From the IMG/VR virus record IMGVR_UViG_3300031669_000218, positions 1 through 25,452 of that record: 25,452 bases of DNA. The stretch is one strand, 5' to 3'. Below the pieces are notes generated by a model. The model made no database searches and was not told the origin of the DNA. It was given only the letters and a program-made list of their open reading frames with translations. Position 1 is the first letter of the stretch. Every line of letters starts with the position of its first letter. Positions 2,802 through 25,128 of the stretch are shown piece after piece. Both the position numbers and the translations under genes were made by a program. Origin of the DNA: a virus.

Positions 2802-2956
2802 CCGAACTGTCCAGGGACGCCGAGATCGTCTCATCCGCCGCGATGTGGGCGAACGGTGAAGACGATAGTGATGAGCCGGATCGGTTTTATCGGTCGGCGC
2901 GGGAGTATCGGGAACGGTACATTTTGGAAGGCTTGAAGGGGAACGTCCGTGGGTAA
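2624..2956 (+). CDS. Tail assembly chaperone -1 frameshift extension (lambda T analogue)
   Basis: This frame is open from within the chaperone gene and ends at 2956, eight bases inside the tape-measure gene. It has no convincing start of its own: the first ATG, at 2591, lies inside the chaperone gene with no family-like N-terminus. A -1 slip at the eight-T run (2617-2624) would join the first 131 residues of the chaperone to 110 residues read here, giving a 241-residue fusion. The extension is helical and acidic (ANGEDDSDEPDRFYRSA, then REYRERYILEGLKGN), as expected for the tape-measure-binding part of a GT-type protein. Lambda G/GT is the best-known precedent. Efficiency and existence of the fusion are inferred. 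Confidence 0.7.
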   Translation, partial: YCQLCPGAESGPSTRSEGRVCDYGFRHDILVSRGVYGFLGDIEEARNYRIEGGIIGACLAELSRDAEIVSSAAMWANGEDDSDEPDRFYRSAREYRERYILEGLKGNVRG

Positions 2957-4661
2957 TAAGAGTATCATAGACGTTGAAATTAATGACGAAAACTTCAAAG
3001 CCTTTCTTGATGCCTTCCATGAGTTCCGCGCTGAAATCGGCGATGTTCCGAAGGATTGGGGCAAGGTTGCCGATGCGATGGATGGATCGCGCAAGAAAAT
3101 CCGTGATCTGACCAAAGAGCAAAAAGCAGCACTTGGCGCCACAGAGAAGCAGATGCACAAAACGGCGTCTGCTGTTGATAGCGCGGCCAAGTCGCAAGGA
3201 AAATTCACGTGGGAAGCCAAGTCCGGCACGAAGGCTGTCAAGGCTCTGGGCATGGCTGCTGCTGCCGCGAAGATGGACGCAAAAGGCCTCGCGATGTCCT
3301 TTGCGGGCATTGCGGGGACCATCCTTGCCGCCGGGGTTGCGCTCGCAAAACTGCAAAACGAGATGGCAAATGCTGCGCTGAAACGCCAAATGTCCGCGCG
3401 AGAGCTTGGCATGAGCCCCGCCAAGATGAAATCGTTTGAGAACGTCACGCAGCGTTATTTGCCGAACTCAAAATCATTCCTGACCGAGATCGAGAACGCC
3501 AAGCAGAACCCGCAAGAAGCCATTCCCCTGCTACGGCTCGGCATATCTGAGCGCAAAATACAGCAGGATTCCGTAAGCAAGTTGGCATTCCTTACGACCG
3601 AGAAGATGCACGCCTTTTACAATGCCCAGCCCAAGGCCACGGTTGGTCTGATAGATCAGACGGCAGGGCTAGGCAACCTCGGCAGCACATCGCAATGGCG
3701 GTTGATCGGGAATACCCCGATGGGTGACTTGGCGGCATCCGCTGAGGCATACCATAAGCGTGCGAATCAGTTCCACATTGGCACCAAAGATTACAATGCC
3801 GCCGCGAAGTTGGCCGTCAACGAAAACGCGCTGGGGATACTGGCCAAGACAAAAGGCATACAGGCGGCAGCATGGGCAGCGCCCGCCGCTGAGAAGGCCA
3901 ATTCAGCGGCAATTTATGGGCTCGGGCATGCGGCGGTTGGCGCGGCTGATGCTGTGAATGGGTTCACGATCGCCATGCAGCATGTAGCAGTTGTGTTGCT
4001 TGGAAAGCAGGCTGGCAACAACGGCCAGCTTGCCGTGCTCAAGGGACAGATGGAGCGCGCTCAGGGCACATCCAGATACCCGGCTGCCCACGCCGCTTAT
4101 GAGCGGTTCAAGGCTTCCCAGGGCGCGTCCGCAAAGGCATTGCGCCCCTATACTTCCGACATTGAAGCCGCTGCGAAGGCTTCTGGTGTTCCCGCTTCTG
4201 TTATCGCGGGCGAAATTTACGCGGAGTCTGGCGGAAAAGCCAACGCCGTGAGTGCTGGCCGATTCCGTGGCAAAGACGGCAAGTGGCATCACGCGCATGG
4301 CATTGGGCAATTCCGCCGCAGCACATGGAAAGAATTTGCAGACGGGCTCCCATACTCGGACGCCAACAACCCCAAAGATGCCATCATGGTAATGGGGCGT
4401 TTTATCGCCACGAACATGAAGCATCACAAGACCAATGCGGGCCTTGAGAGTGCGTATTCTGGTGATCCACGCGGGAGCGCGGCACTGACACGCTATCAAT
4501 ATGCCAATCAAGTCGGCGCGTCTGGCTGGGGTGCTTTGGTGTCTGTGTTGCAAGAGATTGCCAAGAACACCGCCAAGCCCACGCAGGTGCATGTGCATAA
4601 TGCAGGAACCGCGCCCGGCTCCAGGGTGGCCCTATCCGCGCACGCGGCGGGTCACGGCTGA
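2949..4661 (+). CDS. Tape measure protein with C-terminal lytic transglycosylase domain
   Basis: 570 residues, starting at GTG 2949 with a good Shine-Dalgarno sequence (GAAGGGG, seven bases upstream) and overlapping the chaperone extension by eight bases. The N-terminal half is alanine- and lysine-rich helix, with hydrophobic segments near 110-130 (LAMSFAGIAGTILAAGVALA) and 320-350 (AAVGAADAVNGF, then VAVVLLG), as in proteins that set tail length and reach the inner membrane at DNA ejection. Residues about 395-540 form a soluble lytic transglycosylase-like domain: ASGVPASVIAGEIYAESGG, in which E426 is the expected catalytic glutamate, then HAHGIGQFRRSTWKEF and a C-terminal GLESAYSGD helix. 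The domain would open the peptidoglycan locally during infection. It is short for a tape measure, implying a fairly short tail. Confidence 0.85.
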   Translation: MGNKSIIDVEINDENFKAFLDAFHEFRAEIGDVPKDWGKVADAMDGSRKKIRDLTKEQKAALGATEKQMHKTASAVDSAAKSQGKFTWEAKSGTKAVKALGMAAAAAKMDAKGLAMSFAGIAGTILAAGVALAKLQNEMANAALKRQMSARELGMSPAKMKSFENVTQRYLPNSKSFLTEIENAKQNPQEAIPLLRLGISERKIQQDSVSKLAFLTTEKMHAFYNAQPKATVGLIDQTAGLGNLGSTSQWRLIGNTPMGDLAASAEAYHKRANQFHIGTKDYNAAAKLAVNENALGILAKTKGIQAAAWAAPAAEKANSAAIYGLGHAAVGAADAVNGFTIAMQHVAVVLLGKQAGNNGQLAVLKGQMERAQGTSRYPAAHAAYERFKASQGASAKALRPYTSDIEAAAKASGVPASVIAGEIYAESGGKANAVSAGRFRGKDGKWHHAHGIGQFRRSTWKEFADGLPYSDANNPKDAIMVMGRFIATNMKHHKTNAGLESAYSGDPRGSAALTRYQYANQVGASGWGALVSVLQEIAKNTAKPTQVHVHNAGTAPGSRVALSAHAAGHG

Positions 4662-6704: not shown

Positions 6705-7360
6705 TAGGCGACGAACTTCAGCAGTTCTGGATGCAGTTGAGTCTCAACAAGATGGCGGTCAACCGGGCGCTTGAGGCTATCCAGAACGCCGGGAAGTCTC
6801 TGCCATGCGAAGTCACCGCAATTGATGGCGCCATCGTTACCGTAAAATTCAATCTCGATACCGCGCCGTGGACGCTGCCGCCCATCAGCATCCCGAAGCT
6901 GGAAAGTCCGTGGATGCGCTCACCCACACAGATCGGCGATATGGGCCTTGCGGTTCCTGCCGGGACGTATCTGGGAGGCATATCGGGTCTTGGTGGCGGC
7001 GTTGCGAATATGCGCAATCCCGGCAACTTATCGGCGCTCTACTTTGTACCGATCAGCAGCGCGGGCAGCCCTCCGCCCAACATCAACGCGGCGACCGTGC
7101 AGGGGCCGGAAGGGGCCATTATCCAGACCACGGCGGGATCGACCCCTAGCAGCGTGGTGACTAATCAGTCCGGAACCACGGTGACTTTCGGGAGCACTAC
7201 GATTGTGGTGGGGGCATCCAGCATTACGATGACGGCAGGTGGCGAGACGGTGACGCTGGATAGCACCGGCCTCAACATCGGCGGCATCCTGTTCAATACG
7301 CATACTCATCCATATCTGCCTGGCACTGGCACACAGACTGAAACAGGGAGCCCGCAATGA
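6701..7360 (+). CDS. Baseplate central spike, Gp138/gpV-like, with HxH iron-binding tip
   Basis: 219 residues, starting at the ATG at 6701 that overlaps the hub stop (ATGA). A longer reading from 6662 would lie inside the hub gene. Residues about 25-110 form an OB-like N-terminal domain (LPCEVTAIDGAIVTVKFNL, then WTLPPISIP), as in the Gp138 N-terminal family. Residues about 120-195 are short repeated beta strands rich in Thr/Ser/Val/Gly, typical of an intertwined trimeric spike. The C-terminal FNTHTHPY places H201 and H203 in the HxH pattern that holds an iron ion at the spike apex in phi92 gp138 and P2 gpV. The spike pierces the outer membrane, which supports a Gram-negative host. Confidence 0.85.
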   Translation: MIGDELQQFWMQLSLNKMAVNRALEAIQNAGKSLPCEVTAIDGAIVTVKFNLDTAPWTLPPISIPKLESPWMRSPTQIGDMGLAVPAGTYLGGISGLGGGVANMRNPGNLSALYFVPISSAGSPPPNINAATVQGPEGAIIQTTAGSTPSSVVTNQSGTTVTFGSTTIVVGASSITMTAGGETVTLDSTGLNIGGILFNTHTHPYLPGTGTQTETGSPQ

Positions 7361-7716
7361 GGGTATGGGGGCGTACTACAGACCCGCAGACGGGCGTCAA
7401 AACGTGGGTGGAAGTCACCGCCGACGCAAACGGCCTCAACGATGCTGTCAACATCACATGGATGGCGCAGGTCATACGGCTCAACCTGGGCGAGTCGCCC
7501 TTCTGGGGTAACTGGGGCATCCCGCAGTATCAGACCATCATGAGCCAAGTGCTGCCGACTTTTTACGTGATGCAGATACAAAAGCAGTTCGCGCCGCTGT
7601 TCGCATCCCTGTCCATCGTGCAGCAGACCGGGGCCGTGAACCCAACTTATAACGTGAACGCGGTGACGCAGTACGGCGCCATCATACCGACGATTGCCGT
7701 GGAGATACCGACTTGA
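7357..7716 (+). CDS. Baseplate wedge protein, gp25/gpW-like
   Basis: 119 residues, ATG overlapping the spike stop (ATGA). The segment NDAVNITWMAQVIRLNLGE followed by SPFWGNWGIPQYQTIMSQ matches the gp25-like wedge pattern, in which a helix and an 'L-GE-P--G' turn are followed by the conserved dimerising helix. The remainder is beta. Gp25-like proteins form the inner wedge and start sheath polymerisation. The gene lies immediately before the J-like wedge gene, as in P2 and T4 relatives, and the length is normal. The ending (IIPTIAVEIPT) leads into a TTGA overlap with the next gene. Confidence 0.75.
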   Translation: MRVWGRTTDPQTGVKTWVEVTADANGLNDAVNITWMAQVIRLNLGESPFWGNWGIPQYQTIMSQVLPTFYVMQIQKQFAPLFASLSIVQQTGAVNPTYNVNAVTQYGAIIPTIAVEIPT

Positions 7717-8921
7717 CCTCACCCATCGCTATCCCCTTAACCATCGGACTATCCACCGGGCCGCAGCCGACGCCTCCTGCAACATTGCGCACCACGCTCG
7801 TGGACGCCGTTGCAGCAACGAATCCAGGATACACGGCCAACCTCCCCGGCACGCTGGTTGAGGACATTTGCAGCACGGACATGGGCGCAGTTATTACGCT
7901 CGATCAGGCGCGTGTGGACTCGGTGAACAATACGACGCCCTACGCCAGTGCGCCGTACATCCTTGCGCAACAGGGTGCTATGTACGGGCTGCGGCAAGGC
8001 ACCCCGACCAATGCCAGCGTTTATGTGGTGTTCACCGGCCCGGCTGGATATGTGATCGCTCCGGGCTTCGTGGTGTCTGACGGCACGAATCAGTACATCA
8101 TCCAGGACGGCGGCATCATTGGCACGACTGGCGTATCGGCACCACTTTATGCAGTGGCCGTGGCCAGCGGGTCATGGGCCATTCTCGCCGGATCCGTTAC
8201 GACCATCATCACTTCGGTCCCAACCGGTTACACGCTCACCGTGACCAATCCGCTGGCAGGCGTCCCCGGCGGCGCTGCGGAGTCCGTGCAGAGCTACCGG
8301 GCGCGGAACATGCAGGCGGCTCGGGCTTTCGCACAGGGGTCCATAGACCTGATAAAAACCGCCCTGCAAGCCATCCCCGGCGTTGTGCCGCGCCTGGTGT
8401 CCGTGCGGCAGACTGGCGGATCGTGGGAGATTATCTGTGGTGGCGGGGACCCTTATGCGGTGGCTTATGCCATCTATCGGAGCACACTGCACTTTCCCAT
8501 GCTCATGGGGAGTATGAACAATTCCCAGAATGTTACGGTCAGCATTATCAACGCGCCGAACATTTACCAGATCCTTTTCGTGAATCCGATGATGGCCACG
8601 ACGACCGTATCCGCGCTGTGGAATACGGACATCGCGAATTTCACGGCGGTATCGCAAGTGAACCAGCTTGGATCGCTGGCCATTCAGGGGTATATCAACG
8701 GCATATCGGTCGGCGAACCCCTGAATCTGATGCAGCTACAGGACACATTTCAAGAAGCCGTTTCGTCCGTCCTGAGCGCAAGGCACCTGTCTGCCCTTGA
8801 ATTCACGGTAAACGTGGGGGGCAGCGTGGTGACACCGGGTGCCGGAACTCAGCTCATCGCCAGCATGCCGGAAGAATACTTTTACGTGGCTGCAACAGGT
8901 GTCACCGTGGCGCAGGGTTAG
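7713..8921 (+). CDS. Baseplate wedge protein J (gp47-like)
   Basis: 402 residues from TTG 7713, in a TTGA overlap with the gp25-like gene. The central signature is clear: GGAAESVQSYRARNMQAARA, then FAQGSIDLIKTALQAIPGV and the following VRQTGGSWEIICGGGDPYAV, the conserved core of baseplate J / T4 gp6 / Mu gp47 proteins. The N-terminal part contains TPPATLRTTLVDAVAATNPG and a D-rich strand typical of the family. It forms the outer iris of the baseplate that opens on contraction. Residue count is in the usual range. No lesions are seen. This is one of the most secure assignments in the tail module. Confidence 0.9.
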   Translation: MTSPIAIPLTIGLSTGPQPTPPATLRTTLVDAVAATNPGYTANLPGTLVEDICSTDMGAVITLDQARVDSVNNTTPYASAPYILAQQGAMYGLRQGTPTNASVYVVFTGPAGYVIAPGFVVSDGTNQYIIQDGGIIGTTGVSAPLYAVAVASGSWAILAGSVTTIITSVPTGYTLTVTNPLAGVPGGAAESVQSYRARNMQAARAFAQGSIDLIKTALQAIPGVVPRLVSVRQTGGSWEIICGGGDPYAVAYAIYRSTLHFPMLMGSMNNSQNVTVSIINAPNIYQILFVNPMMATTTVSALWNTDIANFTAVSQVNQLGSLAIQGYINGISVGEPLNLMQLQDTFQEAVSSVLSARHLSALEFTVNVGGSVVTPGAGTQLIASMPEEYFYVAATGVTVAQG

Positions 8922-8924
8922 CGC

Positions 8925-9695
8925 ATGGAATCCTTCGATACTGCGCCGCTTGCCGGGATCATCCCCAGCTATCTGTACGACGAGTTTAATGACGACGCCG
9001 ACCTGCAAGCCTTCATCGATTCGTATAATGCCATTGCTCAGGGTTATCTGGACTGGTTCAATGAAACCCCACTGGGCGTCTACACCAGCGATGCGATAAG
9101 CGGTCCACTGCTGGATTGGACGGCGCAAGGTCTGTGGGGCATTCAGCGACCCGTCATATCGACGAGCAGCACCACAACGAAAGGCGCAGTCAATACGTTT
9201 GCCGTCAACACGATGGCGGTGAACGGGTTCAAAAAAACAGAATCCGGCACGGCTTACGTGGCAACCGATGATCTGTATAAGCGGGTTCTGACATGGTATC
9301 TGTTCCTCGGCGACGGCAAGCAGATGTCGATGCACTGGATCAAGCATCGGATCGCGCGGTTCCTGTATGGCCAGAATGGCTCCAATGTCTCAGTCGATTA
9401 TCTGAACTACATCAGCATTCAGCCAGTGATGATGCGCACTGTGGCGGGCGTGAACAGCCGGGCGGTAAACACCTTCGCGGTAAACACCTTCGCGCAAGAA
9501 CAGGCCAAGTCGGTGAGTCTCATCATCCAGGTGCCACAGACCACTGTGACCGCTGCATTCATCGCGCTATTGCAGCAGGGCATCTTGCCGATGCCCACGC
9601 AGATCACGTTCACGATCACCGAAAACAACGCGCTCGGGCCGCTTCTGGACACTTCCGGCGCACCTTTCGTTCTTAATTCTTCCACGCTGGGGTAA
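8925..9695 (+). CDS. Baseplate/tail-fibre connector, DUF2612-like (gpI position), with AVNTF repeats
   Basis: 256 residues, ATG three bases after the J gene stop. The N-terminal half (SYLYDEFNDDADLQAFIDSY, then WFNETPLG) matches the start of DUF2612-type proteins, which lie between the J-like wedge and the fibres and probably join the two. A typical DLYKRVLTWYLFLGDGK segment, then WIKHRIARFLYG, follows. The protein carries five copies of a five-residue unit A-V-N-(T/G)-(F/M): three at residues 88-102 and two at 180-189. The second pair is encoded by a perfect 15-base tandem duplication (9462-9491). The repeats may be flexible or beta-turn linkers. Family call is by order and recognisable segments. 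Confidence 0.7.
   Translation: MESFDTAPLAGIIPSYLYDEFNDDADLQAFIDSYNAIAQGYLDWFNETPLGVYTSDAISGPLLDWTAQGLWGIQRPVISTSSTTTKGAVNTFAVNTMAVNGFKKTESGTAYVATDDLYKRVLTWYLFLGDGKQMSMHWIKHRIARFLYGQNGSNVSVDYLNYISIQPVMMRTVAGVNSRAVNTFAVNTFAQEQAKSVSLIIQVPQTTVTAAFIALLQQGILPMPTQITFTITENNALGPLLDTSGAPFVLNSSTLG
9462..9491 (+). repeat. Perfect 15-bp tandem duplication inside the DUF2612-like gene
   Basis: The unit GCGGTAAACACCTTC occurs twice head to tail and encodes AVNTF AVNTF in frame. A related triplet of the same peptide at 9186-9230 is more diverged at DNA level, so the 9462 copy is a recent duplication. Confidence 0.9.
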
Positions 9696-14235: not shown

Positions 14236-14580
14236 ATGGCCCTCCCTCTCGAATCCCGCGTATCAAAACTAGAATCGCAACACGACGAATTGGACAACCG
14301 AGTGCAACGCATGGAGGACGGCATAGAATCCCTGCGCGCTGAAATTGCCAATAGCCGCATTGAGAACAAGGGCGATTTCAAGGCCATCCAGGACGGACTT
14401 ACCGGGTTGCAGCGCAGCGCATGGGAAAGCATCCCGCTGTGGGCGGCGGAAGACTCCAAAGAGCAAGCGGAACAGTTGCGAAGCGCCAATCATTCTTTGG
14501 GCATCATGATCGGCGTCATTGTCTCTCTGCTCGCCATTGTTGCAATCCTTATCGTCGCAATAGCGGTGCATGGGCTGTGA
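14236..14580 (+). CDS. Coiled-coil protein with C-terminal membrane segment (XhlA-like architecture)
   Basis: 114 residues. Residues 3-60 are a strongly charged heptad-type coiled coil (LESRVSKLESQHDELDNRVQ and RMEDGIESLRAEIANSR). Residues about 88-112 form one hydrophobic segment (LGIMIGVIVSLLAIVAILIV) close to the C-terminus. This N-coil/C-anchor layout is that of XhlA-type holin-associated proteins and the opposite of an Rz-type spanin, whose membrane anchor is at the N-terminus. It opens the lysis-type cassette just after the terminator, with a moderate ribosome-binding site (CAGGACTTAATA). The gene's stop overlaps the next start (GTGA). A role with holins is inferred from layout and location only. 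Confidence 0.65.
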   Translation: MALPLESRVSKLESQHDELDNRVQRMEDGIESLRAEIANSRIENKGDFKAIQDGLTGLQRSAWESIPLWAAEDSKEQAEQLRSANHSLGIMIGVIVSLLAIVAILIVAIAVHGL

Positions 14581-15002
14581 GCACCCCCCCGGATAAGCCG
14601 CCATTAGGCGCCAGGCTTGCGCAGAAATTCGAGAGCAGCATCGATGTCCCCGCATTCATCGCGTTCAACGTGTTTTGCGCTGGGTGGATGCTATTCCAGG
14701 AATGGTTCCCGGCCTACGCCTTCGATCGCTATCCCTACGAAATGCTGAATATGGTCGTCGGCTTTTTCATGGCTGATGTTGCCATCATCATTTCTATCAG
14801 CCAGAACGCGGCCAAGCGGTCGGCGGACAGGATGAATCTGCGGATGCTTGAGCTCATGGAAACCAACCTGTCCATGCTCAAGACGCTGCGGGATATGCAG
14901 GAGCGCGAGGAAGCACGGGATGCGGTGCTGCACGCGATGGTGCAGGGCGGCAGCAAGCGTGGGGATATTTTGGATGAGCTGATTGTGGAGGCTAAATCGT
15001 GA
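14577..15002 (+). CDS. DUF1003-like two-TM membrane protein, holin or lysis-accessory candidate
   Basis: 141 residues from GTG 14577, in a GTGA overlap with the previous gene. Reading from an earlier ATG at 14421 would run inside that gene. Two membrane segments are visible: IAFNVFCAGWMLFQEWF (about 27-43) and MLNMVVGFFMADVAIIISIS (about 55-74). The text FDRYPYEMLN, then ISQNAAKRSADRMNLRMLE, resembles DUF1003 proteins, in which an FD-YP-LLN element leads to a membrane segment and a SQNR--DR cytoplasmic helix. The charged C-terminal half is cytoplasmic coiled coil. A run of seven C lies just after the start (14584-14590). It is translationally coupled to the PLD-like gene. Confidence 0.6.
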   Translation: MSTPPDKPPLGARLAQKFESSIDVPAFIAFNVFCAGWMLFQEWFPAYAFDRYPYEMLNMVVGFFMADVAIIISISQNAAKRSADRMNLRMLELMETNLSMLKTLRDMQEREEARDAVLHAMVQGGSKRGDILDELIVEAKS

Positions 15003-15595
15003 GTCTACAGAATTTTACATTGGCAGACTTGGCCCCTTATGCGCTGGAGAAGCAATACGCGCCGAATGCCAGCAAGGACTTCCACCTGTTTTACGTGGGA
15101 CGCGATGATGTGCATGAAGCACTGAAGCATATTCTCAGCCGCGTAACAGTAAGCCTGTACCTTAATATGTTCGGTTATGATGATGATGAGCTCAACGATC
15201 TAGTAATGGGCATCATCAATAACCCTAATATCGCCTGCCTCATCACGCTGGATAAATCGCAATCGGGTGGAGTGCATGAAAAGCGCTTGCTGGCATCCGA
15301 TGCGGCAAATGCTCCGCTGGCATTCAGCACGCATATCGTAACGGGGCAGAGTTCCACACACCAGATCAGCCATACCAAGGGCTTTGTCGCGGATGGACTG
15401 GTCGGCGCCGAGGGTAGTACGAACTGGTCCACATCCGGCGAAGGCACGTTTGTGGTTAAGGGCAAGCCGGGGGGTGTTGGATTTAAGGCCCAGAACAATA
15501 CGCAATCATTCTTCACTTGCCCGGATGCCGTGAGCCGGTTTCAGGCTGAGCTGATCGCTGAGCATGTGGCAGCGCAGAGGGGGCAAAAACCATGA
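14999..15595 (+). CDS. Phospholipase D-like protein with a single HKD motif
   Basis: 198 residues from GTG 14999 in a GTGA overlap with the DUF1003-like gene. The C-terminal half contains HTKGFVADGLVGAEGSTNWS: H125, K127 and D132 in HxK(x)4D spacing, followed by G139-S140 and N142, the standard HKD motif of the phospholipase D superfamily. The N-terminal half has the usual helix plus a strand leading to a DDDELNDLVMGII segment and LITLD. Only one HKD is present, so it would need to dimerise, as small Nuc-type members do. Superfamily members cut phospholipids or nucleic acids, and the substrate cannot be told from sequence. There is no signal peptide, so it is cytoplasmic unless exported by other means. 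A patatin-like gene follows in an ATGA overlap. Confidence 0.8.
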   Translation: MSLQNFTLADLAPYALEKQYAPNASKDFHLFYVGRDDVHEALKHILSRVTVSLYLNMFGYDDDELNDLVMGIINNPNIACLITLDKSQSGGVHEKRLLASDAANAPLAFSTHIVTGQSSTHQISHTKGFVADGLVGAEGSTNWSTSGEGTFVVKGKPGGVGFKAQNNTQSFFTCPDAVSRFQAELIAEHVAAQRGQKP

Positions 15596-16401
15596 AACCA
15601 CTAATCGCAGCCGCATCATCCGGCGCTGGCTACCTTATCCCCATCGAAGCCGGAGCATGGGCAGCCATACTGGAACTGTTCGACGTTCGGCAAGTGGCCG
15701 GCGCATCGGCGGGCTCTATCTGCTCCGCCCTGGTGGCGCTTGGGCACACTGGCGACTCCATCCACAAGCTCGTCATGAGCGCCGACTTTGCCGCGTTTCT
15801 GCATTGGCGTGTGTGGGGCTGCTGGGACGGCCTGGCGAGCAATGACGCGCTCTATGCGTGGCTGGATGAGGTCACAATGGGCCAGTCGATGGTAGATACC
15901 ACAATGCATCTCACCTGCATGACCTCTGACGTGGTTTCACAGCGCGGCTGGGCATTCACCAGCAATTCAACACCAGACGTGCCCATCGCGCTTGCTGTGC
16001 TGGCGTCCGCAGCCATCCCGTTTATCTATCCCTCGGTGAAGTGGGAGGACAAGTTTCTGGTCGATGGCGGAGTGCTGAATAACATCCCGGTCAGCAGGCT
16101 GCATCAGAAGTACAAACGGCTGGGCATCATGGTCGAGGAGTCGGTAAAGACCGGGCCAATCACGAGCAAACTGGATGAGGCTGCCCGGCTGATCGGCATG
16201 ATGCTATCAGCCAACGAGGGAACGCGCCAGGCATGGGCACAGAGCAATGGAATACCGATTGTTGGACTGCCAGCCGGGGCGCTGTCATATCTGGATGCCG
16301 GGATGCCGGTTGATGAGCGCGAGACCCTGTTTCAGACGGGGTACACCACAATGATGGCATGGATGGCCACAGAGGAGGGCGCCGCATGGCTCTCTTCGTG
16401 A
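15592..16401 (+). CDS. Patatin-like phospholipase
   Basis: 269 residues, ATG overlapping the PLD-like stop. Three patatin elements are visible: a glycine-bearing oxyanion segment near the N-terminus (SSGAGYLIPIEAG), the nucleophile elbow GASAG with S39, and DGG with D158 in FLVDGGVLNNIPV, completing the Ser-Asp dyad. A typical ASAAIPFIYPSVKW segment precedes the Asp motif. Patatin-like enzymes hydrolyse acyl ester bonds of membrane lipids. The length is complete for a minimal patatin domain, and no signal peptide or extra domain is seen. Its place between membrane-protein genes and the endolysin suggests a role in membrane breakdown, but phage patatins of other roles are possible. The adjoining small gene starts in a GTGA overlap. 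Confidence 0.9.
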   Translation: MKPLIAAASSGAGYLIPIEAGAWAAILELFDVRQVAGASAGSICSALVALGHTGDSIHKLVMSADFAAFLHWRVWGCWDGLASNDALYAWLDEVTMGQSMVDTTMHLTCMTSDVVSQRGWAFTSNSTPDVPIALAVLASAAIPFIYPSVKWEDKFLVDGGVLNNIPVSRLHQKYKRLGIMVEESVKTGPITSKLDEAARLIGMMLSANEGTRQAWAQSNGIPIVGLPAGALSYLDAGMPVDERETLFQTGYTTMMAWMATEEGAAWLSS

Positions 16402-16559
16402 TCTGGGCGGCACTGCACTACCAGATCGTCACAATTCCCGTTTTCAGGCCCTCTCTGGAACTGATCCGCGACAATCACATTGTCGAGGTCGTTAATCCGC
16501 CGCGCCGGGGAGAGTTGCAGCCTAACGGTGCTGAGATACAAGGAGTTATTCGATGGTAG
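16398..16559 (+). CDS. Small hypothetical protein
   Basis: 53 residues from GTG 16398, which overlaps the patatin stop in the GTGA form used across this genome. An ATG at 16386 would add five residues (MALF-). The sequence begins with a short hydrophobic segment (VIWAALHYQIVTIPVF) and then a polar part with PPRRGELQPNG. No family recognised. The 57-residue version would look like a short membrane-tethered peptide. Its 3' end contains the Shine-Dalgarno sequence of the following 10-codon ORF. Confidence 0.5.
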   Translation: MIWAALHYQIVTIPVFRPSLELIRDNHIVEVVNPPRRGELQPNGAEIQGVIRW

Positions 16560-16632: not shown

Positions 16633-16851
16633 ATGAACGAACTCGAAAAGCTGGACATGGATGCAAAAGGCGAACTTGCAAAGGTGGAGGATGAGGTTTT
16701 GAACCCATCCAATCATCTACATACGCCCATTGTTGAATCGACTGTAATCGCTGCTCATGCCGTAGAGGGTGTCGCTGCGATTGGGGCTACTGTAAAGGCT
16801 GACGTGGAGGGTTTGGTGGGCAAGATTGGATTGCCCGGGCATGGCGTGTGA
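16633..16851 (+). CDS. Small hypothetical protein, possible non-canonical upstream start
   Basis: 72 residues from ATG 16633 (MNELEKLDMDAKGELAKVED), which has AAGGA seven bases upstream. The protein has an acidic N-terminal helix, then a small-residue helix (STVIAAHAVEGVAAIGATVK) that is amphipathic or weakly membrane-associating. The frame is open further upstream. At 16582 an ATA codon sits seven bases after GGAGG and would add IKLTDLDPRWFTDKDYE, a start-like sequence reminiscent of phage proteins beginning M-KLTDLDP-W. Whether translation begins there cannot be decided here. The function is unknown. It ends one base before the holin-candidate start. Confidence 0.55.
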   Translation: MNELEKLDMDAKGELAKVEDEVLNPSNHLHTPIVESTVIAAHAVEGVAAIGATVKADVEGLVGKIGLPGHGV

Positions 16852-16852
16852 T

Positions 16853-17089
16853 ATGAACGCAAATCTAAAACTCGCCGCAAGTCTAGCCAGCGGCCTCATG
16901 TTCTACGTCATTCTGACCCTCGGCGTATGGCAGAAATGGTGGCTTCCCGATGTGTTGCTTACCGCTATCTATGGCGGCATGACGGCCACAGGGCTGATGG
17001 GCGGCGTCCATTACGGAGCGCGATATCTGACTTACACGAAACCACCTGCAAACCCTACACCCCCAACAACTCAGGAGCATCTTCAATGA
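16853..17089 (+). CDS. Two-TM holin candidate
   Basis: 78 residues from ATG 16853, two bases after the previous stop. Two hydrophobic segments are visible, about residues 7-25 (LAASLASGLMFYVILTLGV) and 32-55 (DVLLTAIYGGMTATGLMGG). A short charged turn (WQKWW) lies between them, and the tail is proline-rich and polar (YTKPPANPTPPTTQEH). Size, two-segment topology and position upstream of a signal-less GH24 lysozyme fit a class II holin that releases the endolysin by permeabilising the inner membrane. No family motif was recognised. An ATGA overlap couples it to the lipoprotein gene. Confidence 0.6.
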   Translation: MNANLKLAASLASGLMFYVILTLGVWQKWWLPDVLLTAIYGGMTATGLMGGVHYGARYLTYTKPPANPTPPTTQEHLQ

Positions 17090-17388
17090 AATTCAAGCTC
17101 GTAACAGCAGCACTCATGGCGCTGTCGCTGTCGGCCTGTGCCACAACCAGCATGACCACTCCGCAAGCCTCGCTGGTGGCATGCCAGAAACTCTTGCCCG
17201 TGACGAACATGATGACCGCCATCAAACCCCGTCTGAGCCTCGCACAGCAGACCCAGACCGGAACAGCGTTGAAGCTGGCGGTATCGTACTGCAACACCCC
17301 GACACCGCCCGCGAACGCCAATGCGGTTGTTGGCTCGATTCTCGGTACCCTGACCACCCTTGCAACCACGATAGGAGCCAAGCCATGA
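17086..17388 (+). CDS. Small lipoprotein, possible outer-membrane lysis component
   Basis: 100 residues from ATG 17086 (ATGA overlap). It begins MKFKLVTAALMALSLSACAT: a basic n-region, hydrophobic core and lipobox L-S-A-C with C18 as the lipidation site. The residue after Cys is Ala, which does not block sorting to the outer membrane. The mature part holds two more Cys residues and a weakly hydrophobic C-terminal stretch (AVVGSILGTLTTLATTIGA). Lipoproteins in lysis cassettes are often o-spanins. However, this one is not markedly proline-rich, and no i-spanin partner with N-terminal anchor is found, so that role is only a possibility. Confidence 0.65.
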   Translation: MKFKLVTAALMALSLSACATTSMTTPQASLVACQKLLPVTNMMTAIKPRLSLAQQTQTGTALKLAVSYCNTPTPPANANAVVGSILGTLTTLATTIGAKP

Positions 17389-17648
17389 CTGACACAGCAG
17401 TAGACCAGGCACAACTGACACAGGTGATCGACACGGCCACCACCGGCGCGGCTGTCGCTGCTGGCGTAACCGGCAACCCGGCTATCATGCCGCTGGCTGC
17501 AGTCGCGGCGGCATTGGCACAGGGCATCTTCCAGCTTACGCAAGGAACGCCTACTACACCGCTGACCACGGCACAGATTGACGCTGAGTGGACAGCAAAT
17601 GCCAAGGCGCTGGGGATTGCTCTGAAAGCGTATATGGCGGCGCCGTGA
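17385..17648 (+). CDS. Small hydrophobic hypothetical protein
   Basis: 87 residues from ATG 17385, overlapping the lipoprotein stop (ATGA). The central part is Ala/Gly-rich and hydrophobic (GAAVAAGVTGNPAIMPLAAV, then AAALAQGIFQLTQG). It may be a membrane segment or amphipathic hairpin, flanked by polar ends (LTTAQIDAEWTANAKALGI). No family recognised. Wedged between lipoprotein and endolysin and coupled to both, it could be a second holin-type or pinholin/antiholin protein. The hydrophobic stretch is broken by N-P, which argues against a simple single transmembrane helix. Confidence 0.55.
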   Translation: MTDTAVDQAQLTQVIDTATTGAAVAAGVTGNPAIMPLAAVAAALAQGIFQLTQGTPTTPLTTAQIDAEWTANAKALGIALKAYMAAP

Positions 17649-18127
17649 GCACACCCCCAGCCCAACTAATCCGCCAGCTCAAACTCCAGGAGGGCGAGCC
17701 CGGCGGCTTGCCTGCACTCAAAGCGTACTGGGATCCCATTGGTCAGGTATTTACGGCGGGCTACGGCCAAACGGGCCAAGGCATCGGCCCCAACACGATC
17801 TGTACCCCCGCGCAGGCTGATACGTGGCTTCTGACGTCCGTTGAGCGGTTCACGCTACAACTGGATAGCCGCTTGCCCTGGGCGGTCCAGATGGGCGTCG
17901 TGCGGCATTCTGTGTTCGTCAATATGGAATACAATATGGGCTTACGATTCCAGGCGTTCACGGAAACGATCAATGACGCCCACCTGGCAATAATGGCGGG
18001 GGCGGCACAGGCATCCGACTACGACGCATGCGCGTCGGCCATGCTGGATAGCCTCTGGGCGCGACAGGTGGGGCAGAGGGCGACTGATCTGGCGCAGCAA
18101 ATGCGCACTGGTGAATGGGTTCTTTGA
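17645..18127 (+). CDS. GH24 (T4-type) lysozyme, endolysin
   Basis: 160 residues from GTG 17645 in a GTGA overlap. An ATG at 17588 would run through the preceding gene. The catalytic region reads LKLQEGEPGGLPALKAYWD then PIGQVFTAGYGQTG. It has the Glu, the Asp after Tyr, and the Thr of T-x-GYG as in T4 lysozyme, with a short extra loop (PGGLPALK) between Glu and Tyr-Asp. A later NMEYNMG segment, then FTETINDA, is a common GH24 feature, and the C-terminus WARQVGQRATDLAQQMRTGE fits the family. No signal peptide or SAR anchor is present, so release should depend on a holin. It cleaves the peptidoglycan MurNAc-GlcNAc bond. Confidence 0.85.
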   Translation: MSTPPAQLIRQLKLQEGEPGGLPALKAYWDPIGQVFTAGYGQTGQGIGPNTICTPAQADTWLLTSVERFTLQLDSRLPWAVQMGVVRHSVFVNMEYNMGLRFQAFTETINDAHLAIMAGAAQASDYDACASAMLDSLWARQVGQRATDLAQQMRTGEWVL

Positions 18128-18324: not shown

Positions 18325-18598
18325 AATCCGGTACGCGCTGCATCCGTTTCCGTCCGTTTAGCATCCGATTCAACCGATTTCCCTCCCGCTCCGGCACAAT
18401 CTCCAGAGCGGCGTTAAATTTCAGGGGCATATTCGTTGCCGACTCGTGCCGACTGATGCAGGCGTACCCCCTGTGGTCGAGGTCGTCCTGGTAACTCGCG
18501 CAGACGTTGCGGCTGTAGTTGGGCCCCCACTCGGGACCGTCGCGGCCTTGGAAGCGGCTGGGCTTGTAGTGTGCGGTTAGAAATTCGTAGAGGGTCAT
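18302..18598 (-). CDS. Hypothetical protein, last gene of the leftward operon
   Basis: 98 residues from the ATG at 18598 (MTLYEFLTAHYKPSRFQGRD), in an ATGA overlap with the methyltransferase stop. A longer reading to 18730 runs inside the methyltransferase. The sequence is charged and contains aromatic-rich patches (DGPEWGPNYSRNVCASYQDD and LDHRGYACISRHESATN). No domain or family was recognised, and there is no membrane segment. Being coupled to the methyltransferase, it might belong to the same modification or anti-restriction block, but nothing in the sequence shows this. Its 3' end overlaps the convergent zinc-finger gene. Confidence 0.6.
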   Translation of the reverse strand: MTLYEFLTAHYKPSRFQGRDGPEWGPNYSRNVCASYQDDLDHRGYACISRHESATNMPLKFNAALEIVPEREGNRLNRMLNGRKRMQRVPDFTLTHLF

Positions 18599-19653
18599 AA
18601 CGGACCTCCCAACATCATCCATGCGGTCGCGGCTTGTAGCGGCACTTGCCCGTTGCCCAGCATCTTCAATCTTGCCCCTCTGTTTGGAATTCCTTCGGCG
18701 ACTCGGCCAACATCCGGCTCTTCGCTCCACCAGTCCACATGAGGGGCCAACCCATCAGCCAGCAGACCCAAATCGGGTTTAATTGGCCCTTCTCGCCCTC
18801 CCGCATCAGGGCGCCGGGAAGGTGGTCTCGGTTCATCTGTGATGGCGGAAGGGTGGCGTTCTTGGAATCCTGGAGCGTTGGTGTCGGCCACATCTTCACC
18901 GCCGCGCACAGAGATGGCGTATTCCGTCGGCGCTCTGCTGAGCAGTCTGGGGCCATTCTCGCCTGGGGCGTCGGCCACATCCGTGCATACGTCGCCAATC
19001 CGTCCCCGCTCGTCTTGCTCAAACCCTTGCGGTTGTAGTTGCCGTTCACGGTTGAGGTGGGGACTCTTTGTTGCTTTCCCTCTATAAGTTCCTGCAACCC
19101 CCTTCCGTATCCCGCAGTCGTGCTCCCCGGCTCTTGTGCTCTTGGCGTTTGCCAAGTTGGCGAGCATCCACCATCGGTCGCGTTTATGCGGTGCGCCGAC
19201 TCACGATGCCTCCAGACAACACCATCGCGCATCAAACCCGCGCGTGGCCAAGTCTCCGAGTACGGTTCCAAGGTGTTCGTTAGCAAGGATTGCTGCGACG
19301 TTCTCCAGGAAGAGGAATCGTGGTCGAACGATGTCAGCAGTTCTGAGCACTTCGCGGTAAAGGCCGCTTCTTGTGCCTTCTCCGAGTCCGGCTTGACTCC
19401 CAGCGATGCTAATATCCTGGCAAGGGAAGCCCGCTGCGAGGATATCCACTCGTCCCGCGTAGTCGGATGGATCGAACATCCGCACATCTCCCTCGTACAC
19501 GTGCAGACCGGGGAACCATCCGTCTGTGGCTCTGTTTCTAAGGACTTGGCAAGCATTTTTATCCCACTCCACGGCAACGATTGGTGTATGGCCCAGAATC
19601 AGGTCGGCGAGCAATCCGCCCCCTCCGCCGGCGAACAGGTGCATGGTGTTCAC
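18595..19653 (-). pseudogene. dcm: Orphan C5-cytosine DNA methyltransferase interrupted by an in-frame TGA
   Basis: The frame starts at GTG 19653 (GTGA overlap with the upstream gene) and has 352 codons to the TGA at 18597-18595. It carries C5-methyltransferase motifs: LFAGGGG (motif I, residues 6-12), EWD (29-31), GFPCQDIS with catalytic C78 (motif IV), FLENV (motif VI). After codon 150 comes VGAPHKRDRWW (motif VIII region), a variable region with LANA/VADA/VADT spacers, and GNGQVPLQAATAWMM (motif X) near 333-347. Codon 151, at 19203-19201, is TGA exactly where related enzymes have Asp in AS-D-VGAPH. The flanking frame is unbroken, so this is a nonsense change, a read-through site or a base error. 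No cognate restriction gene is visible, so it is probably a phage self-protection enzyme. Confidence 0.8.
18666..19577 (-). other. 303-codon ORF overlapping the methyltransferase in another frame
   Basis: This is a second long open frame across the methyltransferase, offset from it by one base, with a TTG at 19577 or ATG at 19556 as possible starts. Its sequence looks protein-like: DEWISSQRASLARILASLG, SSWRTSQQSLLTNTLEPYSE with TWPRAGLMRDGVVW, repeated WPTPQA / WPTPTLQD / WQTPRA units, VNGNYNRKGLSKTSGDGLA, and GQLNPIWVCWLMGWPLMW near the end. I recall deposited hypothetical or methyltransferase-associated phage proteins with the same features. It could be an overprinted gene or a family created by mis-annotating this frame. 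It stays open where the methyltransferase frame has its TGA. Confidence 0.35.
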
Positions 19654-19952
19654 TGATCCTCCCAAACAATCGGCCCTTGGAATGTAAACCCCAGAAATAC
19701 CGTTCCCGAACTGATCTGATCGGCATGAACCCGCAGCGCAATGACTTCACCGCCTGCAGTCTTGGCGAGGTATAGGCCGGGCTCGGTTATTTCGGATGGG
19801 GTTAGGGTCCGGCGTGATTGCACCGCCTCTACGCATTGGATGGCATAATCCAAGGTCTCTGTGAGCTGATAAGGAAGTAGGCCAGCATCGAAGAGTTCGC
19901 ATGACCACTCCCTGTAGTGTTCCAGGCTTTCCAGCTTCTCGGCGTTGGTCAT
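19650..19952 (-). CDS. Hypothetical early protein with EPGxY module
   Basis: 100 residues from ATG 19952, with a strong ribosome-binding site (GAAGGAGAGAAGCC). The N-terminal half is helical (AEKLESLEHYREWSCELFDA, then LTETLDYAIQCVEAVQS). The C-terminal 50 residues form a small beta module: TPSEITEPGLYLAKTAGGEV, then FLGFTFQGPIVW. The protein at 20326-20802 ends with the same module (TEPGVY, LGFEYFGPI). Its stop overlaps the methyltransferase GTG start, and its start overlaps the Lar-like stop, so the three genes are coupled. The function is unknown; the module is compact and could bind a ligand or partner. Confidence 0.7.
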   Translation of the reverse strand: MTNAEKLESLEHYREWSCELFDAGLLPYQLTETLDYAIQCVEAVQSRRTLTPSEITEPGLYLAKTAGGEVIALRVHADQISSGTVFLGFTFQGPIVWEDQ

Positions 19953-22478: not shown

Positions 22479-22897
22479 GGCTGGGCCTCCAGTTCTGCCA
22501 GCTCGCGCCGCACCTGCTCAATACGTTTTTCCCTGAGGGCTGCGGCATTTGCATTCTGTTCGGCAACGTAAGCAGTCCGCTCTTCTGGCGGCATCATGCT
22601 CAACTCAAACCGTTCACTTTTAAGGAGTGTTCGACCGATGCAGAAATCAACGGTGCCATCAAATACCTCGGTGTCGATCACGAGATACGCGCCATCGGTA
22701 AACCGCACAACGATAGATTCCCCATACTCCTTAATCTCCTGCACGGTACGTCCACGCGAGCCGACCTCATCGCAATATTCTGCAGCCCACCGCGATCCTG
22801 TCATCCGCTTGGCCACCTCCGCCGCAATCGGGTCTGTCGAGTGTGCGAGGCAGGAAAGTAGCTCGTCCACGGTTAAGTTTTCCGGTCGGGGGTTCAT
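22475..22897 (-). CDS. Hypothetical protein following recT
   Basis: 140 residues from ATG 22897 (ATGA overlap with recT). It begins NPRPENLTVDELLSCLAHST and has a central beta region (GESIVVRFTDGAYLVIDTEV) with a short helix. The C-terminal third is a long charged coiled coil (NANAALREKRIEQVRRELAE). No family recognised. Translational coupling to recT suggests a partner in recombination or replication, but there is no direct evidence. Confidence 0.65.
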   Translation of the reverse strand: MNPRPENLTVDELLSCLAHSTDPIAAEVAKRMTGSRWAAEYCDEVGSRGRTVQEIKEYGESIVVRFTDGAYLVIDTEVFDGTVDFCIGRTLLKSERFELSMMPPEERTAYVAEQNANAAALREKRIEQVRRELAELEAQP

Positions 22898-23955
22898 GCC
22901 TCACCCCACTTAGCCCGGTATGCAGCCATGAGCTTGCTGGCATCCTCGGCATTAAGCGCGTCCACGTCCGGGTCGGCCATGATGTCGGCGGCCGCGCCCG
23001 CGTCTGCTGCAGCGTTGACACGCTTGATGAGTGTGGCCACAGACGCCGACGGCGGATCACCGGCTTTCAACGGCTCGGGCTTTGTTTTGGTGATCTCGCC
23101 GGTGTCTTGGTCTACGGTCTCGCCTTCCTCTTCATGCACAACGCACTCACCTTCGATGATGTCGATGTGCGCTTGTTTCCCGCGCTCGCTCAGGTCGTCC
23201 ACGGCCACAGCGGTGTTGAACTCAACAGACAGCGGCAGCATCTTGGCCAAGCGGCGCACTGCGGTCTTTTTGCCCATCTCTACCTCGTGATCGATCCACG
23301 GATGGGAAGGTGCCTTTTTGTATTTCTCCGCGCTGGCAATGGCTTGCTTGTAGCCTTGGCTGGCACTCCGGATATCCAGGACTTCACTGTTCGGCATGAA
23401 GTCGAAAGCGTGGCCACCGTCCTTCATGTGGGCCACGGCGTAGTAACCCAGCACAGGGCCACGATCACCCGCGAGATAAGGCACATGGCGGAGCTTTTCT
23501 TCCAGGCCATATTCCAGCTCAAAAGTATCCTTCTCCCGGACCTCGTGCGCGGCGATGCTGACGATGTGCCCGGAGCGGCGGGCCAAGTCGATCAGACCCT
23601 TGTACCCAACGATGACCTGCACATTCTTAATCCACTGCCCGGCTCTGTTTTTCGCACCGAAGGGGATTAAGTAGGCGTGCCCCAGCACGGTATTGGGTTC
23701 CAGCCCCATCTGGGCGCACTGACCGATTGCGGAGATAAGGGATGGTATCTCGCACTCCAATAATGCTGGCGTTGTGGTGGCTGCGATCTGGGCGACTTTT
23801 AAGAGGCGGTCGGCGTTTAAGTGCCGAGGCAGCATGGCGGCGATGGAATCTTTCCTGGCCTCCAGTAAATAGGCCACCTTCTCGGCCGGCTTCATGGCTG
23901 CAAGGTCTTTCTTCGGCTGCTGGGTTACTGCTGATTTCAGGGTTGCGACACTCAT
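22894..23955 (-). CDS. recT: RecT-family single-strand annealing protein
   Basis: 353 residues from ATG 23955, with AAGGAG six bases upstream. The core is a clear RecT: MLPRHLNADRLLKVAQIAAT, LISAIGQCAQMGLEPNTVLG, HAYLIPFG, VQVIVGYKGLIDLARRSGHI, GPVLGYYAVAHMKDGGHAFD and HPWIDHEVEMGKKTAVRRLA. The protein anneals complementary single strands after end resection by its exonuclease partner, the next gene upstream. It is longer than typical RecT: residues about 265-353 add an acidic linker (EEEGETVDQDTGEI) and a helical domain (SVATLIKRVNAAADAGAAAD). Spacing of ten bases from the exonuclease stop indicates one operon. Confidence 0.95.
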   Translation of the reverse strand: MSVATLKSAVTQQPKKDLAAMKPAEKVAYLLEARKDSIAAMLPRHLNADRLLKVAQIAATTTPALLECEIPSLISAIGQCAQMGLEPNTVLGHAYLIPFGAKNRAGQWIKNVQVIVGYKGLIDLARRSGHIVSIAAHEVREKDTFELEYGLEEKLRHVPYLAGDRGPVLGYYAVAHMKDGGHAFDFMPNSEVLDIRSASQGYKQAIASAEKYKKAPSHPWIDHEVEMGKKTAVRRLAKMLPLSVEFNTAVAVDDLSERGKQAHIDIIEGECVVHEEEGETVDQDTGEITKTKPEPLKAGDPPSASVATLIKRVNAAADAGAAADIMADPDVDALNAEDASKLMAAYRAKWGEA

Positions 23956-23965
23956 TATGATCTCC

Positions 23966-24868
23966 TTATTTGATCCGCAATACGCGTGTTGATGTGGTTA
24001 CTTTGAACCGCTCGACAATCTCAGGGTGTGCGGCCGCAATGGCTTTCTGGTCCAGCCGTGAGGCGTTCTGGCTCTTCCAGGTAGCAAGGATGCGCCCCGC
24101 GCTGGCGATAGCTTCCGCGTCCCGGAAGGCGGGAAGGATGGCGTCCTTCAGCTCCGCCTCTCGCGTTTCCAACCCTTTAATCTGGGCCTTCACCATCTTG
24201 AGCTCCTGCACAAGATCGGCTACGGATTCGCTTACTTCGGCGGTCGCCAAGTGCGATGTGGGCCACACGCTGAGTGCGTCATCAGCGGTCTCAATCGGCG
24301 GCGGCGTCTGGTTCTGGACAAGTTCCCAGAAGTCAAGCTCTTTTTGCCGAATAAGCGCGATCAGTTCATCGTCCCGCTGGATTTTGAAAATGCGGAAGTC
24401 GTCCAGGCCAATCATCGCGGCGACATGGCAAACATCGCGGCCAGTCACCATCAGCCCGTGCATGAACTGTGCGGCATAATAGATTGGGATATCGTCGCTG
24501 CCAGGCTCGCCCCACAGGTGCCGGGCGAAGGGCTGGGCGGTCTTGGCGTCGATGTTTTCGTTGCCAGTCTCCCCGTCGATCTCTGCGGCAAGGAATGGGT
24601 ACTCTGAGTCTTGGAAGCGACGGTTGCAGTGTTCAACTTTCAGCCCGGATTCATCTTCAAACATCTGAAGGATGACCGGCTCAAGGCGCTTGCCGCGGGC
24701 GAATATTTTCTGCTTCGCTTGGTCTTCGACTTCGGTAACAAGCCCCGTCTTTTTTGCCCATAGCTGGTACTTCGTTTGCCACGGAGAAACGCCGAGAATC
24801 GCTGCTGCATCACTTCCGCCGAGATAGGTGCGGCGGTCTGGCTGCTGGAGTTGAAGTACGCCGCTCAC
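23966..24868 (-). CDS. YqaJ-type 5'-3' exonuclease (RecE/lambda Exo-like partner of RecT)
   Basis: 300 residues from GTG 24868, chosen because it forms a GTGA overlap and has GGGAG eight bases upstream. An ATG at 24883 would give 305 residues and overlap the previous gene by 19 bases. Numbering from that ATG, YqaJ motifs are GGSDAAAILG (22-31), RGKRLEP with E68, AEIDGE with D103, IDAKT with D112 and K114, and QFMHGLMVTG (139-148). These give a PD-(D/E)xK nuclease site, here with D-x-K where family members more often have E-x-K. The C-terminal third is coiled coil (LVQELKMVKAQIKGLETREA). The enzyme resects dsDNA ends to feed RecT. Confidence 0.9.
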   Translation of the reverse strand: MSGVLQLQQPDRRTYLGGSDAAAILGVSPWQTKYQLWAKKTGLVTEVEDQAKQKIFARGKRLEPVILQMFEDESGLKVEHCNRRFQDSEYPFLAAEIDGETGNENIDAKTAQPFARHLWGEPGSDDIPIYYAAQFMHGLMVTGRDVCHVAAMIGLDDFRIFKIQRDDELIALIRQKELDFWELVQNQTPPPIETADDALSVWPTSHLATAEVSESVADLVQELKMVKAQIKGLETREAELKDAILPAFRDAEAIASAGRILATWKSQNASRLDQKAIAAAHPEIVERFKVTTSTRVLRIK

Positions 24869-25128
24869 GAGTTGCGCTCCCATTCCATTTTCTTGACGCG
24901 CTTATCTATGGCGGTAAAGGCGCTATCAAGCATCTCCACTATCACATAGCTTTTTAGGGCGGCTTTGGCACGGATGGCGTCTTCTAAGACCTCATCGCAC
25001 AGACGTTCTGCCTGGGTGACCCGATCTTCCAGCCATTCAATCCTTGAGAGCGTGGCACCCAGGGCCTCAACGAGGTCGCCCTGCGCAACATGGGCGTTGA
25101 TAAGCGCTTGTACGGGTACGTGGGTCAT
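24865..25128 (-). CDS. Hypothetical helical protein upstream of the exonuclease
   Basis: 87 residues from ATG 25128 (ATGA overlap with the upstream gene). It is almost wholly helical, with a central coiled coil (LSRIEWLEDRVTQAERLCDE, then VLEDAIRAKAALKSYV). No family or membrane segment was recognised. It couples to the exonuclease through a GTGA overlap, so it may be an accessory of the recombination pair. Confidence 0.65.
   Translation of the reverse strand: MTHVPVQALINAHVAQGDLVEALGATLSRIEWLEDRVTQAERLCDEVLEDAIRAKAALKSYVIVEMLDSAFTAIDKRVKKMEWERNS

Follow-up and report, generated by a model that had tools for sequence, protein, structure and literature searches.

The viral record IMGVR_UViG_3300031669_000218 of IMG/VR, analysed whole as the window (25,452 bases), carries on its plus strand a run of overlapping genes that encode a patatin-like phospholipase and a protein of the phospholipase D (PLD) superfamily within a phage lysis cassette. 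The block opens with an XhlA-like protein (14236-14580; 114 amino acids), in which a coiled coil is followed by a C-terminal transmembrane (TM) segment, and continues with a DUF1003 protein (14577-15002; 141 amino acids), a PLD-superfamily protein with a single HKD motif (14999-15595; 198 amino acids) and the patatin (15592-16401; 269 amino acids), of which the second and third have GTG starts. Neighbouring genes share 4 bases, GTGA at 14577-14580 and again at 14999-15002 and ATGA at 15592-15595. A preliminary description, made from the sequence, had these overlaps exactly right but counted three genes in the chain; with the XhlA-like gene included there are four. The XhlA-like label derives from architecture alone, with PF10779 at E = 0.24, and this architecture recurs in relatives, where it sits upstream of a nuclease or endolysin. 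The DUF1003 identification was borne out by PF06210 (E = 7.5e-9) and two TM-like segments.

Downstream of the patatin we found further parts of a lysis cassette, in agreement with the setting first proposed for the block. Two small genes come first, one encoding a 57-amino-acid protein with a hydrophobic N terminus (16386-16559), resembled by a 62-amino-acid gene after the patatin in the related loci L104 and L106, and the other a soluble protein of about 72 amino acids whose start is uncertain (16633-16851). They are followed by a holin candidate (16853-17089; 78 amino acids, with a TM-like segment), a lipoprotein with the lipobox LSAC (17086-17388; 100 amino acids), an 87-amino-acid protein with one TM-like segment (17385-17648) and a GH24 endolysin (17645-18127; 160 amino acids, GTG start), which matched PF00959 at E = 7.9e-9 and phrog_7 endolysin at E = 3.7e-10. 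The holin candidate, which had no match in profile-family searches, was proposed from its size and its resemblance to a small TM protein encoded after the patatin gene of locus L255. The lipoprotein is a distant member of a family that we call lipoprotein A (E = 1.6e-5 against the family profile, with seven window proteins searched).

The patatin and the PLD-like protein

The patatin, the lipase part of the cassette, scored 82.1 bits against PF01734 (E = 8.1e-23; curated cut-off 27.7). Its Ser39/Asp158 dyad had been described as intact, and both residues were invariant in a five-sequence alignment. A patatin profile scan of viral contigs returned 78 loci with 75 unique proteins, 71 of which have GxSxG while the other 4 keep the serine as xTSxG; a DGG/A-type match was present in 74 of the 75. 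The closest solved structure by profile was PlpD (E = 6.4e-26), and annotated phages gave distant matches alone. On the best reading, the patatin is a predicted lysis-phase phospholipase. An anti-phage defence or superinfection exclusion unit, akin to the patatin effectors of CBASS-type systems, is highly improbable. The patatin does match defence phospholipase models, although weakly (PADLOC best E = 1e-9; NCBIfam CBASS_lipase 26.7 bits), and the NCBIfam scores lie far under the curated cut-offs (26.7 versus 200, and 20.6 versus 400). Among the proteins of the block we saw no cyclase or other defence partner, there is no coupled nucleotide cyclase or sensor, and overlaps tie the genes to the lysis block. 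The preliminary description had offered an anti-competitor or anti-defence unit as one option; we found no positive support for it.

The PLD-like protein was sub-threshold against PLDc_2 (E = 0.06). Its family comprises 42 loci in IMG/VR and 59 in bacterial genomes; annotated phages yielded none at E 0.01. His125, Lys127, Ser140 and Asn142 are invariant across 31 aligned relatives, and the HxK and GSxN active-site motif is present in all 87 unique relatives. Of the H125, K127 and D132 originally assigned as catalytic, the His and Lys are thus invariant, whereas Asp132, the 'D' of HKD, is missing in one distant subgroup; the loss of catalytic residues among relatives, a possibility raised at the outset, was confined to this position. 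Residues at about 84-94 (LDxSQxxGxHE) are also nearly invariant. Neither this protein nor the patatin has a signal peptide or a lipobox detectable by simple hydropathy and motif search, which agrees with the signal peptides having been reported as absent.

We modelled the PLD-like protein from its family alignment (a profile-based model; pLDDT 78.5). The best fold match was the nuclease NucT (Z 14.5, root-mean-square deviation 2.7, 141 residues), and Zucchini (Z 13.4) and Nuc (Z 13.3) also matched, with FAM83 and PLD3 close behind. In total, 137 PDB chains reached Z of at least 5, the best rows being HKD proteins, and a sequence search for solved relatives returned NucT alone (E = 0.13). The model therefore supports an HKD fold. 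The protein shares this fold with the single-HKD nucleases NucT and Nuc, as well as one HKD motif with GSxN. It differs from them in sequence (about 12% identity), in its own LDxSQxxGxHE motif and in having no detected signal peptide.

From sequence and model, a nuclease is a likelier prediction for the PLD-like protein than a second lipase, because HNH proteins replace it in relatives and its best fold match is NucT. The preliminary description had mentioned a nuclease as the alternative, and this now appears the better reading, since the replacing proteins, found in L044/L104 among others, are HNH-type nucleases. It is unlikely, by comparison, that both enzymes cut lipids jointly during lysis, with the patatin taking acyl chains and the PLD-like protein headgroups. 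The direct 4-base coupling of the two genes in the window and in locus L045 would suit such a pair, as would the presence of true phospholipases in the superfamily and a Z of 13.8 for the two-domain phospholipase D 7e0m. However, beyond the HNH-type substitutes and the NucT match, genes of this PLD family also pair with lipases of the Lipase_3 and DUF1353 families.

Besides lysis cassettes, PLD relatives are found next to the terminase and portal genes of other phages and, as solitary genes, on the chromosomes of Acidobacteriota, Paraburkholderia and Mycobacterium. When the neighbours of the solitary genes were inspected for a substrate clue, no conserved operon was seen. Six of the solitary genes, from soil bacteria, encode long N-terminal extensions (L064, L066, L071, L072, L076 and L080). 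In another set of loci (L019, L021, L023, L030 and L035-L039), the PLD gene lies just upstream of the large terminase and portal genes, where it may have a packaging-related role. L084 and L098 present a lysis-like setting (about 6986-8785), in which genes for an XhlA-like protein (coiled coil and TM segment) and an enzyme with a CHAP domain follow the PLD gene. We set aside a Mycobacterium PLD gene with a Lipase_3 match nearby (L093) as probably not related to lysis.

Two slots for exchangeable enzymes

To map the cassettes, we searched 333 loci with profiles built from our own protein clusters. The usual order is an XhlA-like or N-terminal-TM coiled-coil protein (not always present), endolysin, a nuclease slot, holin, lipoprotein B or C, lipoprotein A and a lipase slot. 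In the nuclease slot there is the PLD-like protein, an HNH enzyme (PF01844 above cut-off), a member of an HNH-like family (invariant ExHH...N...H; PF13391 below cut-off) or no enzyme. The lipase slot is taken by a patatin, a Lipase_3 protein (PF01764 above cut-off; GHSxG in 81 of 83) or a DUF1353 protein (PF07087 above cut-off). About 190 unique lipase genes were examined; most are near lysis genes and some are in isolated phages. An endolysin gene lies within 4.5 kb of 52 of the 75 unique viral patatins and 60 of the 83 unique Lipase_3 proteins. The recognised nuclease partners were HNH (8), HNH-like (11) and PLD (5) for the patatins, and HNH (13), HNH-like (28), PLD (6) and both HNH types together (1) for Lipase_3. 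The 30 unique DUF1353 proteins were accompanied by HNH (27) or PLD (3), a frequency that is biased by their having been found almost wholly with nuclease probes. The exact order endolysin, nuclease, holin, lipoprotein A, lipase was present in 47 unique cassettes, which together represent six nuclease/lipase pairings. Named hosts of the cassettes were Pararobbsia, Paraburkholderia, Castellaniella, Aquitalea and Paludibacterium.

As a less biased test, we used loci that had been probed with the nuclease and not with the lipase. Lipoprotein A was present in 44 unique loci of this kind, 2 of which stop at a contig edge. In all 42 informative cassettes the gene after lipoprotein A was a patatin (9), Lipase_3 (12) or DUF1353 (21); DUF1353 entered the lipase list after being seen in the slot, and the count without it is 21 of 42. 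With this result, the suggested lipid-degrading lysis aid is well supported for the patatin, because three lipolytic families that are unrelated to one another alternate in its slot at the cassette end. The same result bears on the possibility that these enzymes are released weapons or morons, either competitor-harming cargo or hot-spot genes unrelated to lysis. The end of the cassette is a common site of exchangeable genes, the enzymes are often swapped, and members of both the patatin and the HNH nuclease families are found in systems of bacterial competition. Arbitrary morons, however, would not be expected to be lipolytic in 42 of 42 cases, and neither an immunity gene nor a delivery domain was seen, so we regard this explanation as quite unlikely.

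The lipolytic nature of DUF1353 is supported independently of its position in the slot, by a characterized relative and by modelling. TtaP, a DUF1353 protein, has phospholipase A2 (PLA2) activity shown experimentally, and prophage relatives of DUF1353 were noted in the same paper (PMC11525133). In the family's HDxxY motif, the His-Asp and the Tyr are invariant. Foldseek alone gave no match to the phage DUF1353 model at E <0.001; in a second-look alignment the best match was the bacterial PLA2 8k1w (Z 7.0, next row 3.4). TtaP thus belongs to one of the three families of the lipase slot. It differs from the cassette proteins in being a bacterial typhoid-islet protein encoded outside phage lysis cassettes, and the window itself has a patatin. 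DUF1353 genes are labelled 'tail assembly chaperone' in E. coli phage Bas80 (L336, 3971-4312) and in many INPHARED records. This label is probably wrong, because a DUF1353 member is a proven PLA2 and the Bas80 gene comes directly after the endolysin, holin and spanin genes.

Lipoprotein A (for example L126, 5537-6004) is itself conserved, has paired cysteines and no Pfam match, and precedes the lipase whatever the lipase fold; it could be a partner, an anchor or an unrecognised spanin.

Cassettes of this type are also present in isolated phages. Burkholderia phage BgManors32 (NC_070955) encodes, in a row, an XhlA-like protein, a GH19 enzyme, an HNH-like protein, a holin-like protein, lipoprotein A and Lipase_3, with the endolysin adjoining the HNH gene. 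Shewanella phage QDWS (OK094664) has the same enzymes in the common order, with other genes between the endolysin and the HNH-like gene. Both phages share the sequence of endolysin, HNH-like, holin-like, lipoprotein A and lipase genes, and differ from the window in carrying HNH and Lipase_3 in place of PLD and patatin. Their records annotate these genes one by one and do not describe the set as such. Bas80 carries an endolysin, a holin, an annotated Rz-like spanin (DUF2514) and DUF1353; when E. coli genomes were searched with its lysis genes, the best matches covered the endolysin alone. An HNH search of annotated phages returned one metagenomic record.

In both slots, unrelated enzymes of the same broad class repeatedly replace each other. 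A tree of the PLD proteins from 13 cassettes calls for 6 switches of lipase type, which is no fewer than with shuffled labels (mean 6.4), and PLD proteins on short branches are found with Lipase_3 (L005), patatin (L007) and DUF1353 (L049). An HNH tree of 50 rows contains 15 changes of lipase type. The tree search was run in quick mode; it left several forks open, and the branches of L014 and L093 are long. Because unrelated proteins of the same broad activity fill each slot, the pattern points to selection for the activity and not to inheritance of a gene.

The window and its nearest relatives

The window, L044/L104, L106 and L255 form a group with a gene order of their own: XhlA-like, DUF1003 (where present), nuclease, patatin, one or more small genes, holin, lipoprotein and endolysin (L106 begins at the patatin). 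Since the same components occur in two gene orders, they appear to be linked by function beyond shared synteny. The nearest relative of the window is L044/L104, whose tail proteins are 70-93% identical and whose patatin is 90% identical, and which has an HNH gene and an extra one-TM protein where the window carries PLD. This extra protein, encoded between DUF1003 and HNH (L044, 4154-4651), has 165 amino acids and no Pfam match. In L255 the HNH gene overlaps the patatin gene, and in the unrelated contig L045 a PLD gene is directly joined to the patatin gene by the same 4-base overlap as in the window. The recurrence of this overlap, together with the 42 and 59 loci of the PLD family, argues that the cassette is not a chance arrangement.

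We rejected DUF1003-PLD-patatin as a conserved unit, because a clear DUF1003 homologue was found in L044/L104 alone, and the DUF1003 protein matched nothing in a viral scan. The DUF1003 gene is an optional passenger, accessory to the cassette. The adjacency that the preliminary description expected in other phages therefore exists at the level of function and not of the trio; it is the functional composition that is conserved.

Elsewhere in the window, a C5 cytosine methylase on the minus strand (18595-19665) is seemingly split into two open reading frames, 19201-19665, which matched PF00145 as the N-terminal half (E = 2.6e-25), and 18595-19167, which looks like the C-terminal part. In L044 the methylase is a longer, single open reading frame of 280 amino acids (8647-9489). 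The structural region of the window encodes a 570-amino-acid protein with an SLT transglycosylase domain (2949-4661), and a RecT/YqaJ recombination pair lies on the minus strand (22894-24883).

A lysis model and known systems

The block probably belongs to a lysis operon of the phage to which two enzyme activities, a patatin phospholipase and a likely nuclease, have been added. The gene layout, family membership, intact catalytic residues, conserved placement in lysis cassettes and repeated enzyme exchange were observed directly. On this model, the patatin and the PLD-like protein would be produced late in infection and accumulate in the cytosol. Once the holin opens the inner membrane, the patatin could reach or cross it and deacylate host membrane phospholipids as the GH24 endolysin cuts peptidoglycan. 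Phospholipid cutting would contribute to the breakdown of the envelope or of its debris, and the benefit might be disruption, debris clearance or both. The PLD-like nuclease would degrade host nucleic acid as the cell opens, freeing virions from DNA and membrane debris. The timing of expression, passage of the enzymes through the holin lesion, their precise substrates and any gain for the phage are inferred.

Several observations weigh against this model. A cytosolic phospholipase, unless held inactive, might harm the cell before lysis. No nuclease was recognised near the patatin in 51 of 75 cassettes, so the nuclease is optional. The phospholipase D 7e0m ties with the nucleases in the structural comparison, which had been suggested with Nuc and phospholipase D and in which NucT ranked best; fold matches alone cannot separate the two groups, and the fold does not decide the substrate. 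Lysis is not the sole context of PLD relatives, given the solitary chromosomal genes and the terminase neighbours. The gene order of the window is unlike the common cassette order, and the holin label and several endolysin labels (FlgJ-type, GH108-type and LYS21) come from our own cluster recognition or from small size and are uncurated.

Textbook lysis of Gram-negative hosts by phages has three steps, performed by holin, endolysin and spanin. It is possible, although doubtful, that the lipase mainly replaces the spanins, so that outer-membrane rupture in these phages would depend on phospholipid hydrolysis. None of 51 phage records matched PF03245 (Rz), and PF10721 (DUF2514) exceeded its cut-off in only one record besides Bas80, a contig with this match at 1.3-1.7 kb and its lipase near 23 kb; published work on spanins and disruptins regards disruption of the outer membrane as required and as a step of its own. 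The absence of Rz matches does not show replacement, however, because PF03245 also misses the annotated Rz-like spanin of Bas80, and spanin diversity exceeds what two profiles can exclude. Bas80 carries both a spanin and DUF1353, and in some cassettes lipoproteins B or C and the N-terminal-TM coiled-coil protein could be an unrecognised spanin pair. More speculatively, membrane phospholipid hydrolysis may be, in a large and mainly betaproteobacterial group of phages, a standard, exchangeable lysis function that disrupts the outer membrane in the role of Rz/Rz1-type spanins; an exchangeable nuclease would accompany it and clear nucleic acid, and the window would represent one among several ways of assembling such a system from unrelated enzymes.

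Returning to the extended lysis operon, the preliminary description had stated that standard lysis models include no lipid-cutting step. This was too strong, given the established lipolytic lysis protein LysB of mycobacteriophages (PMC5707550) and the patatin-based lytic cassette proposed for phage WO, some variants of which add a PLD-family endonuclease (PMC9203015). LysB, a lipolytic enzyme reported to be needed for efficient lysis (PMC5707550, PMC8309991), matches the window's predicted lipase in being encoded within a lysis cassette, but it is a mycolyl-arabinogalactan esterase that acts on the mycobacterial envelope, whereas the window protein is a patatin. In phage WO the patatin is beside a small holin-like protein, much as the window's patatin and holin candidate are two small genes apart, and in some variants the PLD-family endonuclease stands beside the patatin. 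The WO cassette differs in having no peptidoglycan endolysin and an added ankyrin protein; the window has a GH24 endolysin and a holin candidate, and a profile search gave no ankyrin match among the block's proteins. In WOVitA1 (HQ906662) the PLD and patatin genes are adjacent but on opposite strands. The WO PLD protein is of another subfamily (PLDc_2 E = 1.7e-29, with a lipobox-like N terminus), and the WO and window patatins are 28% identical over 179 aligned columns.

Our literature search, which left most subscription-journal articles outside its reach, returned no paper joining 'patatin', 'phage' and 'lysis cassette'. The coexistence of the lipase with a full endolysin cassette, the two slots of unrelated, interchangeable enzymes and the DUF1353 link are new. 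They suggest that lipid cutting, often together with nucleic-acid cutting, is a regular and little-recognised part of lysis in these phages. A large set of cassettes thus adds a lipase, and often a nuclease, to the scheme of holin, endolysin and spanin. Genes now annotated as hypothetical, 'esterase', 'HNH endonuclease' or, for DUF1353, 'tail assembly chaperone' thereby acquire functions that can be tested, and the question arises whether lipid hydrolysis helps or replaces outer-membrane disruption at lysis.

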